5,270 nt of DNA from Anaerolineaceae bacterium (GTDB lineage Bacteria > Chloroflexota > Anaerolineae > Anaerolineales > Anaerolineaceae), in contig JAQTMA010000276.1 of the NCBI GenBank assembly GCA_028714615.1, positions 1 through 5,270 of the forward strand, read 5' to 3'. Position 1 is the stretch's first letter. Every line of letters starts with the position of its first letter. A program made the position numbers and the translations under genes. This document shows, piece by piece, positions 1 through 3,613 of this stretch. The notes beneath the pieces were generated by a model. It was not told the origin of the DNA, made no database searches, and was given only the letters and a program-made list of their open reading frames with translations.

Positions 1-128
1 TGGTGGTGGGCATCGACGACGCTGCCGAATCCGATCGCACTATCGATATGCTCATGGGTGAAGCCGTGCCTCCCCGGACGAAGTTCATCCAGACCCACGC
101 GAAAGATGTCCGCAATTTGGACGTGTAA
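1..128 (+). CDS. gyrB: DNA gyrase subunit B, C-terminal end (partial)
   Basis: This is the last 41 codons of a gene that enters from the left edge; the frame starts at base 3 and ends at TAA 126-128. The visible protein starts [19 protein letters not shown] and ends [14 protein letters not shown]. The pattern DAAExDR...LMG...PPR..FIQTHAK.VRNLD(V/I) is the hallmark C-terminus of GyrB, the ATPase subunit of the type II topoisomerase that introduces negative supercoils; this piece closes the Toprim/tail region that contacts GyrA and DNA. ParE is the main alternative, but the ending -VRNLDV is more typical of GyrB. GC is about 58% by hand count, higher than the neighbouring STAND gene. The gene converges on the - strand STAND gene, with 116 bases between the two stop codons. 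The ATPase domain and start lie outside the window. Confidence 0.93.
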
Positions 129-182: not shown

Positions 183-222
183 TAAAAAGACCTCGCAGTT
201 GGCGATCAACCTGCGAGGTCTT
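183..222 (-). terminator. Intrinsic terminator between convergent genes
   Basis: Bases 187-198 (AAGACCTCGCAG) and 211-222 (CTGCGAGGTCTT) form a perfect 12-bp inverted repeat. The stem can continue by TTG/CAA (199-201 with 207-209) with C210 bulged, leaving a 5-base loop. Read on the - strand, the stem is followed by a run of five T (complement of 184-188), as in a Rho-independent terminator. It lies about 22 bases past the STAND stop codon. On the + strand the hairpin is followed only by TTGTAGAAAT, so it would stop gyrB transcripts less well, though it may serve both directions. Confidence 0.85.
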
Positions 223-244: not shown

Positions 245-3200
245 CTAAAATCCTTTCCGGAAAGCAGCATGGTAGCCAAATACTTCTTCATGATGCTCCC
301 TCTCTAGGGCATTCACGAATTCTTTTTCAGCACTTTCCTTTCCGATCTTTCCAATTTCACGGATTCCTGCATCCGGATGTTGACTTAGTAGTTCAAATCT
401 GCTTACCCACTCTTGCCTTACTTTAGATTCATGACCTACCCAAGATATACATTTATATGTGTAGCCGTAAACGGCTTGAGCAATCGCCTTCGGGGAGATT
501 CCATGTTTTATTGCCAATCTTGCTTTTTCAATCCATCCTTCCTCTTCACACCAAACCAATGGCACAAGATGAAATAGACCCAATCGGTCGTTCTGTAACA
601 GACTTTGATAGAGAATGAGATCACTGCCGATCAAATATTCAATTAATTGTCCATATTCCCAAAATGAAGGAATGATATCTAGAAGCCGTAGTTTTGCTTC
701 CTGATCCACTGCAGAAACGGCGGCTTTAACAGAGACACCAGATTCGAAAAGGTCAATATCCTTTTCTTGAAGAAATTTCACCAACCATTCATAAGCCAAT
801 CCCGGATCCTTTGGTAAAATTGGGTAGATCATTTGATGATCCCTTGAGTGAATGATCGCCTTCCTCCAATCATCAATAATTGATTCACTTATCCCAATAC
901 CGTTCTTATTTGACATCCATATACCAATCGCCGCGGCACTAGCAACCCTTGGATCTGGATGTCGGAGCAATTTTTGGATAATCCTTTCTGGAATTTCATT
1001 CCGAAGACAAAGTAACCGAATTAGATGTTCATATCCTGATAGATGCTCAAATACAGCTTCAACAAGTTGATCATTGGAGAATGGATTTTGGAGAGCAATG
1101 GATATTCCCATCCCTGAATATTCTGGAGTCTTAAGGCTTTCGATAATTAGATCTTGCCATTCCCGCTCATTCAATCTCGCTGACTTTTGCAAAAAAGGAG
1201 TAACCAAATCTGCTCGGCAGCGTGCAGCCATCAATTCTTTCACCCATAGCCCAGGAGAAGACATTTGCTGGGATAATTCAAAACAGAATTGTGGTGTCAA
1301 ACGTGGCCAATTAATGTCAAATGTTTGGGCTTCATTCTCATATTGAACTATCATAGAAATAATACTATTGTGGTCTGCTTGGATCCACTTGGCAACAAGT
1401 TTTTTGATTTTCCGTAATTGTATCTCTTCCTCTTTTTGCCAATCAGTTCGGCTTTCCATGGGATATAACGTCCCAAATATTGGATCCGTTTGGATTTTTA
1501 TATCGAGTTTTGCCAACTTAGCAATTGATTTAGCCCAATGAAGCAAGCCTTTATTGTTTGGTTGCATTGAGGCCAAGTCATGAATGATCTGGGATGCAAA
1601 TCCTTTCATCTGAACTCGCGTTTGTGGGGATATTTTTAAATTGTGCAATTTTGGGAATGCCCAAGAGCTTGCCAATTCCTGTAAAGGCTTCCATTCAATA
1701 TTGACAATATATCTCAATGTTAGAAAAACATCTGGCCATTGATCCCAGAGATACTGCATCTCTCCCTGTTGGAGATAGGCTTGGCGGATCGTAATAGTGT
1801 TTCCAGAACCGGGGTCGGGCGTAAAGCTCTCGCAAGTCGGATTAAAGGCAATTCGCAAAGCTATCAAACTAGGACGTGCATCTTTTTCTTTCCTCAACCA
1901 ATTAAGCGATTCCTGGATTAATAACCTCCTTCGGATGATTACATCTTCACTTCCAGGCCATGCGTCCTTTATCCAATCTTCGATTGTTCGAAGGGGATGA
2001 TCTGGAGTTGAATGGAGTTGGCGGAGATCATCAATAGACTCTCGGAATAGCATCGGAATTACTTTTTCTGGAGCATTCATTAACGCAGGTCGAGCTAGTG
2101 GAACCGTAAATTCTGGATGGTTATCGATGACCCATGCAGCTTCTTTTTCTCCAGAAGATGCATATGCTTCCCAGGTCTCCAATGAATTGGCTTGATCTAT
2201 TAATGAGATTATCTCGGATAAGGGAATTTTTGCGCCAAGATGATACGCACCAACTACACTCCTGGCAGATTGATTGATATTCGGGCTACGTTCAATAAAG
2301 GGTTGAATTGGAAGCGAATATGCTCCATGGAAAAAAACATCTCTGATCAGTGCATACCGCAACGTGGAAGGATGGACAGATAGATTTTTATCAAGAGTCT
2401 CCCATAAAATGCCGCCCGAGCCAAGTTCAACGATAATTCTATGGATATCCACAACAGGAATCTGGAGAATTTCAGCGATAGACGATGAATCCATTCCGGC
2501 ATCACCGCCCACTGAAAAAGCGGCCAAGATATCTATTGCTCTGCTGCCAAGCCTATTCTCGAAGTATCTTCTGACCGAATTACTTAATGCTTCACCAAGA
2601 ACCACTTCTTTTACTCCACCCGCCAAACAAAGATTAGATAATACTGCGGCCAAGCCTGGCCTGCCCTCAGCTTGGTTTACGATTTCGTGAACTAATTGTG
2701 CAGATCCGCCTAATCCTGCATCATTAATTACTTCAACTATTTGGGGGCGAGTTAGAAGAGCAAGATCATAGATGGCTATATCTGCGATATGCAATGATGT
2801 TTTTACGTGGGCTTTGTCACCTACCCAGCAACTCGCCAAAATTGAATATTCTGCGTGAAGCTCCTGTCGAATTTGTATTAGGTTCACAAGAAGGTCTGGA
2901 TGGATCTGTGCATCGTCAACGATTAAGACTGAGGGTTCTTGTGATCGAATCCCATTGGCAATCTCTTCACAGTTTTCATCGACAACGAATAAGCCATTCC
3001 CTTCTTTCGCGAAACGATGCAAGAGAAAAGATTTTCCTGACCCGGGCTGACCAGCTAGCAAACGATCACCCTTTGTCTCACAAAGCCATCGAAGATCATC
3101 TTCGCGACCGATTAGGGACATATTCATTATCGGTCGATCTGTCTTAGGGAAAATCGACAGAGCCAGCGGTTTTCCTGTAAGATTTAGCAGCTCTTTACAC

Positions 3201-3613
3201 CACTCAGGCCGATGATACAGGCGGTTTGAAATATCCTCACGCGGATGAACATTGACCAACCAAAATCCCATTTCTTCAGCACGTTCATAAAGGTTCTGTA
3301 TCTTTGTTGGTGATAGTTTTTGCGAGGTTGCTAGTACGACCTTTCGCCTTTTACGACCAGATTCAAGGTAAGATGTTAGACTTTTGGTTAGATTACCAAT
3401 AACATTCTTTTGAGTCGTTGCTACTAATGAGAACGGCTCTCCTTCCCCGTCAGGAATTGCGCCATCCATCCCCGAATCTTTACCCCCTGGAATTGGGGCA
3501 AGTCCGGGATAGACTTCATTCAGGATATCCGCGACACATCTTTCGAACTCATCTGGGTCAATGGTTTTACCTAGACGCTCGATAATTTGTTGATAGAAAG
3601 GGTCGCGATTCAT
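245..3613 (-). CDS. Large STAND NTPase with N-terminal PD-(D/E)XK-like nuclease region; candidate antiviral (Avs-like) protein
   Basis: The 1122-residue product appears to have three parts. (1) Residues about 20-150 look like a restriction-endonuclease fold: helix with E24, then GGKDSGMDG (43-51, candidate metal ligand D50), a strand with VATTQK (64-69, candidate K69), and a second strand KVVLATSQK (91-99). (2) Residues about 165-430 are a STAND P-loop ATPase: IGRE entry (168-171), Walker A GQPGSGKS (188-195), Walker B VLIVDD (229-234), GRP motif (317-319), and a winged helix (about 359-428) with VHP (413-415) where NLR-type proteins carry MHD. (3) Residues 430-1122 are apparently helical with HEAT-like HPD segments (882-899, 1076-1093), the usual place of a ligand sensor. 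No signal peptide or membrane segment is seen, so it should be cytosolic. In known Avs proteins, binding of a phage protein makes the ATPase oligomerise and switches on the nuclease; that role here is inferred. ATG at 3613 is chosen because TAG lies in frame two codons upstream; the ribosome site is weak. The stop is TAG 245-247. The STAND call is strong, the nuclease call moderate, the defence role an inference. Confidence 0.85.
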   Translation of the reverse strand: MNRDPFYQQIIERLGKTIDPDEFERCVADILNEVYPGLAPIPGGKDSGMDGAIPDGEGEPFSLVATTQKNVIGNLTKSLTSYLESGRKRRKVVLATSQKLSPTKIQNLYERAEEMGFWLVNVHPREDISNRLYHRPEWCKELLNLTGKPLALSIFPKTDRPIMNMSLIGREDDLRWLCETKGDRLLAGQPGSGKSFLLHRFAKEGNGLFVVDENCEEIANGIRSQEPSVLIVDDAQIHPDLLVNLIQIRQELHAEYSILASCWVGDKAHVKTSLHIADIAIYDLALLTRPQIVEVINDAGLGGSAQLVHEIVNQAEGRPGLAAVLSNLCLAGGVKEVVLGEALSNSVRRYFENRLGSRAIDILAAFSVGGDAGMDSSSIAEILQIPVVDIHRIIVELGSGGILWETLDKNLSVHPSTLRYALIRDVFFHGAYSLPIQPFIERSPNINQSARSVVGAYHLGAKIPLSEIISLIDQANSLETWEAYASSGEKEAAWVIDNHPEFTVPLARPALMNAPEKVIPMLFRESIDDLRQLHSTPDHPLRTIEDWIKDAWPGSEDVIIRRRLLIQESLNWLRKEKDARPSLIALRIAFNPTCESFTPDPGSGNTITIRQAYLQQGEMQYLWDQWPDVFLTLRYIVNIEWKPLQELASSWAFPKLHNLKISPQTRVQMKGFASQIIHDLASMQPNNKGLLHWAKSIAKLAKLDIKIQTDPIFGTLYPMESRTDWQKEEEIQLRKIKKLVAKWIQADHNSIISMIVQYENEAQTFDINWPRLTPQFCFELSQQMSSPGLWVKELMAARCRADLVTPFLQKSARLNEREWQDLIIESLKTPEYSGMGISIALQNPFSNDQLVEAVFEHLSGYEHLIRLLCLRNEIPERIIQKLLRHPDPRVASAAAIGIWMSNKNGIGISESIIDDWRKAIIHSRDHQMIYPILPKDPGLAYEWLVKFLQEKDIDLFESGVSVKAAVSAVDQEAKLRLLDIIPSFWEYGQLIEYLIGSDLILYQSLLQNDRLGLFHLVPLVWCEEEGWIEKARLAIKHGISPKAIAQAVYGYTYKCISWVGHESKVRQEWVSRFELLSQHPDAGIREIGKIGKESAEKEFVNALEREHHEEVFGYHAAFRKGF

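Follow-up and report, generated by a model that had tools for sequence, protein, structure and literature searches.

A rare family of NLR-like STAND proteins with an endonuclease-fold N-terminus lacking the catalytic lysine: candidate conflict receptors in bacteria

INTRODUCTION

STAND proteins are described in the relevant passages of PMC12931631 as joining an N-terminal effector to a central NTPase and a C-terminal sensor, with nuclease effectors in Avs1 to Avs4 and a Sir2 domain in Avs5. Here, we analyze an Anaerolineaceae gene whose product is arranged in the order known from Avs1 to Avs4 (AVAST): an endonuclease-fold N-terminus as effector, a STAND NTPase, and a large C-terminus that would act as the sensor. 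Throughout, "the window" is the whole stretch of DNA that was analyzed, 5,270 nucleotides of contig JAQTMA010000276.1. The gene (245..3613, minus strand) encodes an NLR-like STAND protein of 1122 amino acids, with 374 homologues and an AF2 model of mean pLDDT 90.5, and the family as a whole follows the effector-NTPase-sensor logic of STAND proteins. An initial reading made from the letters alone had proposed a candidate antiviral protein built like the Avs proteins, which sense phage proteins and cut DNA. We favor reading the protein as a conflict receptor of the NLR-like STAND kind that probably acts against phages, most likely with an atypical metal-dependent nuclease as its effector, and give this reading somewhat better than an even chance.

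RESULTS

The window contains three genes. The open reading frame lies on the minus strand exactly where it had been predicted, and its 1122 codons compare with a longest open run of 250 codons in 200 mononucleotide shuffles of the window. Its start methionine is common to the homologues, with M at the first alignment column in 104 of 117 rows. Both flanking genes are of housekeeping type, as anticipated: downstream lies the convergent end of gyrB (3..128, plus strand; PDB GyrB chains, best E value 3.8e-6), and upstream a gene for a MutS domain V protein that is incomplete at the contig end (3929..5269, minus strand; PF00488, E value 3.1e-24). The STAND gene is AT-richer than these neighbors, as had also been noted, with a GC content of 0.43 versus 0.49 for the mutS-like gene and 0.57 for the 128 bases of gyrB. 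Its GC3 of 0.36 falls below both the mutS-like gene (0.57) and the short gyrB tail (0.71), which hints at a foreign origin.

Between the end of gyrB and the STAND gene, 3' of the latter, a perfect 12-bp hairpin with a short run of T after it (187..222, minus strand) probably serves as a terminator; the fold of positions 176 to 228 has an energy of −25.7 kcal/mol (z score, −5.9). A terminator scan missed this hairpin because its 12-nt loop lies outside the 3- to 8-nt range of the scan. Neither an Rfam match at gathering scores nor a tRNA was detected in the window.

In the phylum of the genome that carries locus L012 (Chloroflexota, a Thermoflexia MAG), the mutS-like neighbor has full-length relatives that are 42 to 51% identical, and relatives at an E value of ≤1e-25 occur in 46 of 301 genomes; the full-length ones mostly span 600 to 680 codons. 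The 41-residue gyrB tail, a short query, was not found adjoining the mutS-like gene in ten loci, some of which end early. Of the 15 genomes in which the mutS-like gene matched best, none yielded a family member, in a search run without a positive control.

A search of 5.8 billion proteins yielded 374 homologues among 7,996 scored candidates. Among the 120 homologues listed, 117 are 1109 to 1146 residues long, cover 97 to 100% of the length and share 39 to 53% identity with the window protein; the three partial ones (P0010, P0031, and P0092) were dropped, leaving the 117 rows of alignment A1. Using three peptide patterns, we found 31 loci in 84,980 species genomes, distributed over Chloroflexi, Planctomycetota, Acidobacteriota, Thermodesulfovibrionales, Bipolaricaulota, Proteobacteria, Spirochaetia, Dojkabacteria, and others. 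Within a sample of 400 genomes from the phylum of the L012 genome, three were carriers, one being the center of the sample, which doubled as the positive control. The family is thus rare and patchy. Vertical descent appears to occur as well, since loci L006, L009, and L010 occupy one site, with cobalamin genes on one side and a holA-like gene on the other (assigned by eye). Collections of viruses, plasmids, and phages returned no relative, one of these searches being limited to the three peptide patterns. We found no description of the family in open PMC papers, which does not prove that none exists. Among the locus proteins, L016 and several others end at contig ends. At L007:7583-10917 and L030:6405-7657 the longest open reading frame is shorter than the tblastn match, and these copies look frame-broken through decay or assembly error; the pieces were used unaltered.

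The central part of the window protein is a STAND NTPase domain (about residues 160 to 340; 2594..3136, minus strand), assigned by structural matches to STAND proteins and by motifs. Its Walker A motif, GQPGSGKS (residues 188 to 195; 3029..3052), has P190, G191, G193, and K194 invariant in the 117 rows of A1, and the same holds for D233 and D234 of the Walker B region (about residues 229 to 234; 2912..2929). Upstream of the P-loop lies LIGRExD, the GRE-type motif of STAND NTPases (R170 in all 117 rows, E171 in 77 of them), and downstream GRPGLA (residues 317 to 322), their GxP motif (P319 in 116 of 117). A helical bundle and winged helix follow (about residues 341 to 430; 2324..2593, minus strand); they rest on predicted secondary structure and fall inside the structural STAND matches, which reach residues 424 to 470. 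The Pfam match to the winged-helix region is weak (RPA_C, 18.4 bits, below the cutoff of 22.6). The proposal of a STAND NTPase with a winged helix is therefore borne out by structural matches and nearly invariant motifs.

The remaining residues, about 431 to 1122 (248..2323, minus strand), agree with the roughly 690 helical residues that had been expected: the AF2 model is mostly helical here, with one beta hairpin at residues 593 to 613. This region is the probable sensor. Among the 50 matches listed for the whole model, Foldseek gave mostly helical repeat proteins, clamp-loader and RuvB ATPases, and designed proteins, with low TM scores. In the VIA comparison of the whole model, Avs5 was the only Avs protein among the 50 matches listed, which says nothing against other Avs types. 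The single window protein had no match among PDB sequences at an E value of ≤1, and the family profile matched mainly P-loop stretches (among 60 of 106 matches listed). Nothing in Pfam or NCBIfam scored above the cutoff for the window protein.

The N-terminal domain (residues 1 to 145; 3179..3613, minus strand) matches the restriction endonuclease fold, with Avs4 tied for best (VIA). We examined its site in a MAFFT alignment of 216 window-type N-termini, a redundant set. The acid at the motif II place, D50 (codon 3464..3466, minus strand), is conserved in 208 of the 210 rows that cover it; D46 is almost invariant, and each of the 205 rows covered at position 24 has E or Q there. At the place of the PD-(D/E)XK lysine stands a threonine, T66 (codon 3416..3418, minus strand), which is T in every one of the 211 covered rows. 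Since no lysine occurs at positions 65, 66, or 67 in any of the 216 rows, of which about 211 have coverage at these positions, and position 64, at the Glu/Gln place, is Val, Ile, or Leu in 210 of 210 covered rows, the textbook motif III, (D/E/Q)xK, is missing. The sequence-only reading thus held as to the nuclease fold and failed as to the motif III lysine, and its implication of DNA cutting is not supported in that form, the catalytic lysine being an invariant threonine in every covered window-type member.

The spacing from D50 to T66 is 16, as is that from the acid at the motif II place to the catalytic lysine in the Avs2 protein at locus L015, in P0127, and in P0146. The geometry of the active site is inferred from secondary structure. 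We do not claim that the window-type and P0146 N-termini are sister domains: an hhalign comparison of the N-terminal profile A2 with P0146 gave no relation, so T66 is placed by spacing and fold only. The next helix in the AF2 model (residues 71 to 84), at the motif IV place, carries N74, invariant in 211 of 211 covered rows, and position 77, where 157 of 216 rows have R or K, so that its basic residue is not invariant; farther on, T96 is T in 213 of 215 covered rows. Mrr_cat matched 14 of 26 N-termini at an E value of ≤0.5 (best, 1.1e-5), the window protein itself at 0.033, below the cutoff. In PADLOC, residues 18 to 120 weakly matched the model of an Argonaute-associated REase-TIR protein (E value, 0.0011).

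The Vsr endonuclease works without the lysine. In DUF1626, Thr frequently stands in for the motif III lysine, which is believed to have migrated into the motif IV helix, and the like has been proposed for DUF506 and DUF790 (PMC1913061). Mean conservation in A1 is about 3.1 bits for residues 1 to 150, 2.9 for 151 to 325, and 2.2 for 426 to 1122; the single best-conserved 25-residue bin, 301 to 325, lies outside the N-terminal domain, and because A1 holds the best full-length matches only, its N-terminal conservation is partly a product of selection. The high mean conservation of the domain suggests that its site is in use, and we consider a site that has changed but still works likelier than a dead one.

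An alternative that we regard as rather improbable is that the same receptor carries a non-cleaving N-terminal fold, which would bind DNA or RNA, or oligomerize or recruit, and do harm through sequestration or a partner. The absence of both the motif III lysine and its Glu/Gln in every covered row of the 216 would fit this alternative, and inactive enzyme domains are discussed as possible decoy effectors in conflict systems in a section of PMC7159879. The near-invariance of D46, D50, T66, N74, and T96, in a domain that is on average the best conserved in A1, would be needless for a mere scaffold.

The window-type N-terminus is one of several on this core. We typed a redundant set of 254 sequences, made up of 223 proteins plus the proteins of the 31 loci (L018 equals P0121): 216 were of the window type, 33 were other or truncated, and 5 without an NTPase match remained untyped. 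A SEFIR N-terminus is found in L018 (PF08357, E value 3.6e-14), an NNH1 N-terminus in P0122 (E value, 3.4e-32), and a QxK nuclease in P0146 (Mrr_cat, 24.2 bits, above the cutoff); P0127 was typed as a P0146-like nuclease by its QCK motif alone, Mrr_cat being absent from its Pfam matches at an E value of ≤0.05. Further N-termini on the same core belong to unassigned types. That some relatives bear SEFIR or a canonical QxK nuclease instead also speaks against a non-cleaving scaffold.

To follow these exchanges, we built a FastTree tree from the NTPase and the C-terminal part, with the N-terminus excluded, for 245 of the 254 sequences, 6 of them unlabeled. On this core tree, the N-terminal types require 9 changes when HTH extensions are merged with the window type, versus at least 23 in 200 shuffles (mean, 25.5), and 15 when XRE and AlpA extensions are kept separate. 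Several non-window types nest within window-type branches, and the SEFIR and NNH1 sequences are sisters with a support of 100. The tree is a quick one with some low inner supports, and its "short" and "EAD-like" labels were assigned by eye, the id range of a single search also contributing to "short." One sensor-NTPase core thus bears different N-termini.

In one group, a short N-terminus replaces the nuclease-fold domain (L026:3365-6649 on the plus strand, L031, P0184 to P0192, and P0196 to P0201), and most of these are weakly hydrophobic at the start. The best 19-residue hydropathy was 1.1 to 1.7 in the six checked, in one of them away from the start, which is no proof of a membrane helix; these members are possibly membrane directed.

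The window-type N-terminus starts late in 14 of the 216 sequences: nine have an XRE-type segment, three an AlpA-like one, and two are likely start overcalls. The XRE-type segment precedes the nuclease-fold domain in L005, L011, L014, L015, P0203, P0205, P0208, P0210, and P0212 (three scanned, five called by precomputed Pfam, and L011 by eye). The AlpA-like segment, seen by eye, occupies the same place in P0165 to P0167; Pfam found no HTH there in P0165. Such segments may perhaps serve autoregulation or DNA sensing. They also bear on a reading that we consider unlikely, in which the STAND protein would regulate host genes or mobile elements instead of acting against phages, its N-terminus being a DNA-binding domain. 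The XRE-type HTH of L005, L014, and L015 and the AlpA-like segments would suit such a regulator, and an NLR-like system controlling gene transfer agents is reported (PMC13236601). An HTH-like segment is present in just 12 of the 216 window-type sequences, however, SEFIR and nuclease N-termini are effector types and not regulators, and the family is rare and patchy; all three points argue against it.

We then considered the neighborhoods of relatives. One neighbor per locus was picked by eye at 30 of the 31 loci (L022 offered no candidate) and scanned with PADLOC at an E value of ≤1e-5; Pfam was run in addition on the neighbors of nine loci and on a second neighbor at L020, an integrase. Of the 30 loci, 16 had a PADLOC match, and 12 matches were judged specific. 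Together with L019, identified by Pfam alone (McrBC, E value 8.3e-47; no PADLOC match), this makes a defence-type neighbor at 13 of 30 loci, or 11 sites if L006, L009, and L010 are counted once. The neighbors were PDC-S20 with KAP (L005), Mrr-like at the site shared by L006, L009, and L010, PglX (L011), short pieces matching type IIG enzymes (L012 and L014), PD-Lambda-2_B (L013), Avs2 (L015; E value, 0), dCTP deaminase, with the integrase on the opposite side (L020), HmaC/DUF499 (L024), and TIR (L029). The PADLOC matches left uncounted were partial or weaker (L026 and L003) or generic (L001 and L007). At 17 of the 30 loci no specific defence-type match was found, and 13 of these had no PADLOC match at all. 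Ten mutS loci of the L012 genome's phylum served as a control, scanned with PADLOC only; one of them had a match (a methyltransferase). As picking by eye biases the count of 13 of 30 upward and the control is small, the enrichment beside defence genes over 1 of 10 is suggestive only. Universal vertical synteny free of any link to defence, which would have spoken against the proposed role, was not seen, given 3 carriers in 400 genomes and these 13 neighbors.

Two loci deserve separate mention. In an Acidobacteriota MAG, L015:3898-8022 (plus strand) encodes an Avs2 protein of 1374 residues; the family relative, of HTH-nuclease-STAND build, has this gene some 2 kb upstream, so that two NLR-like receptors lie close together. 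L029:170-3046 (plus strand), 570 bases upstream of a family member, is a 958-residue open reading frame with an N-terminal TIR domain followed by radical SAM (TIR_2, E value 4.1e-20; Radical_SAM, E value 2.4e-7; weak pVip match).

DISCUSSION

We propose that the NTPase (residues 160 to 430) would keep the resting protein inactive until the helical C-terminus (residues 431 to 1122) binds a ligand, likely an invader protein. Nucleotide exchange would then allow oligomerization through the NTPase, which would gather the N-terminal endonuclease-fold domains into a cluster. The target of this cluster would be nucleic acid, and it would most likely work as a metal-dependent nuclease of an atypical kind, with a site that may consist of the retained D50 and E24, T66 in place of the catalytic lysine, and, from the helix that follows, N74 and the basic residue 77. 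The window protein would in this way take part in defence. Against this reading count the loss of two canonical catalytic residues, the variability of the basic residue at 77, and the housekeeping-type neighbors in the window. More tentatively, as a possibility that we hold with some doubt, the lysine-free domain might represent new effector chemistry, such as lysine-free cleavage or another substrate, on NLR-like receptors for which Pfam, NCBIfam, and PADLOC have no models.

If the conflict-receptor reading is right, the family would form a branch of the NLR-like receptors of bacteria, one that has so far come to light mainly in metagenome-assembled genomes. One sensor-NTPase body would have changed its weapon several times, making effector exchange in bacterial immunity traceable. 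Its dominant weapon would be an endonuclease fold without the textbook lysine that keeps an invariant site, and would offer a clean test of cutting versus a new job.

Among described systems, the Avs proteins are some of the closest. The N-terminal fold of the window protein matches residues 2 to 174 of Avs4, and the Avs-like character that had been proposed holds for the domain order. It does not extend to membership of Avs1 to Avs5: the window protein matches no PADLOC Avs model at an E value of ≤1, in a library whose recognition of a true Avs protein was checked with the Avs2 of L015 (E value, 0), and has Thr in place of the catalytic Lys. It is also shorter, at 1122 residues, than the Avs4 chain (1534) and the L015 Avs2 (1374). 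By sequence, then, we do not classify it as an Avs1 to Avs5 protein. That it is a true Avs1 to Avs4 member diverged beyond recognition, as the shared order and the tied Avs4 nuclease match might suggest, seems to us highly improbable in view of the missing model matches and lysine and of profile A1, which aligns with the single L015 Avs2 over just 34 columns around the P-loop (probability, 14%). From Avs5 (SIR2-STAND) it differs in having an endonuclease fold, not SIR2, as effector, and the two superpose loosely (rmsd, 10.4 over 377). The archaeal STAND ATPase 2qen, CED-4, and the plant NLR resistosomes NRC4, WRR4A, and RPP1 have other effector and C-terminal parts. Finally, whereas the motif III (D/E/Q)xK of the Mrr_cat, MspJI, and AspBHI endonuclease domains is Val/Ile/Leu-x-Thr in the window family, the fold and the acid at the motif II place, D50, are shared with them.
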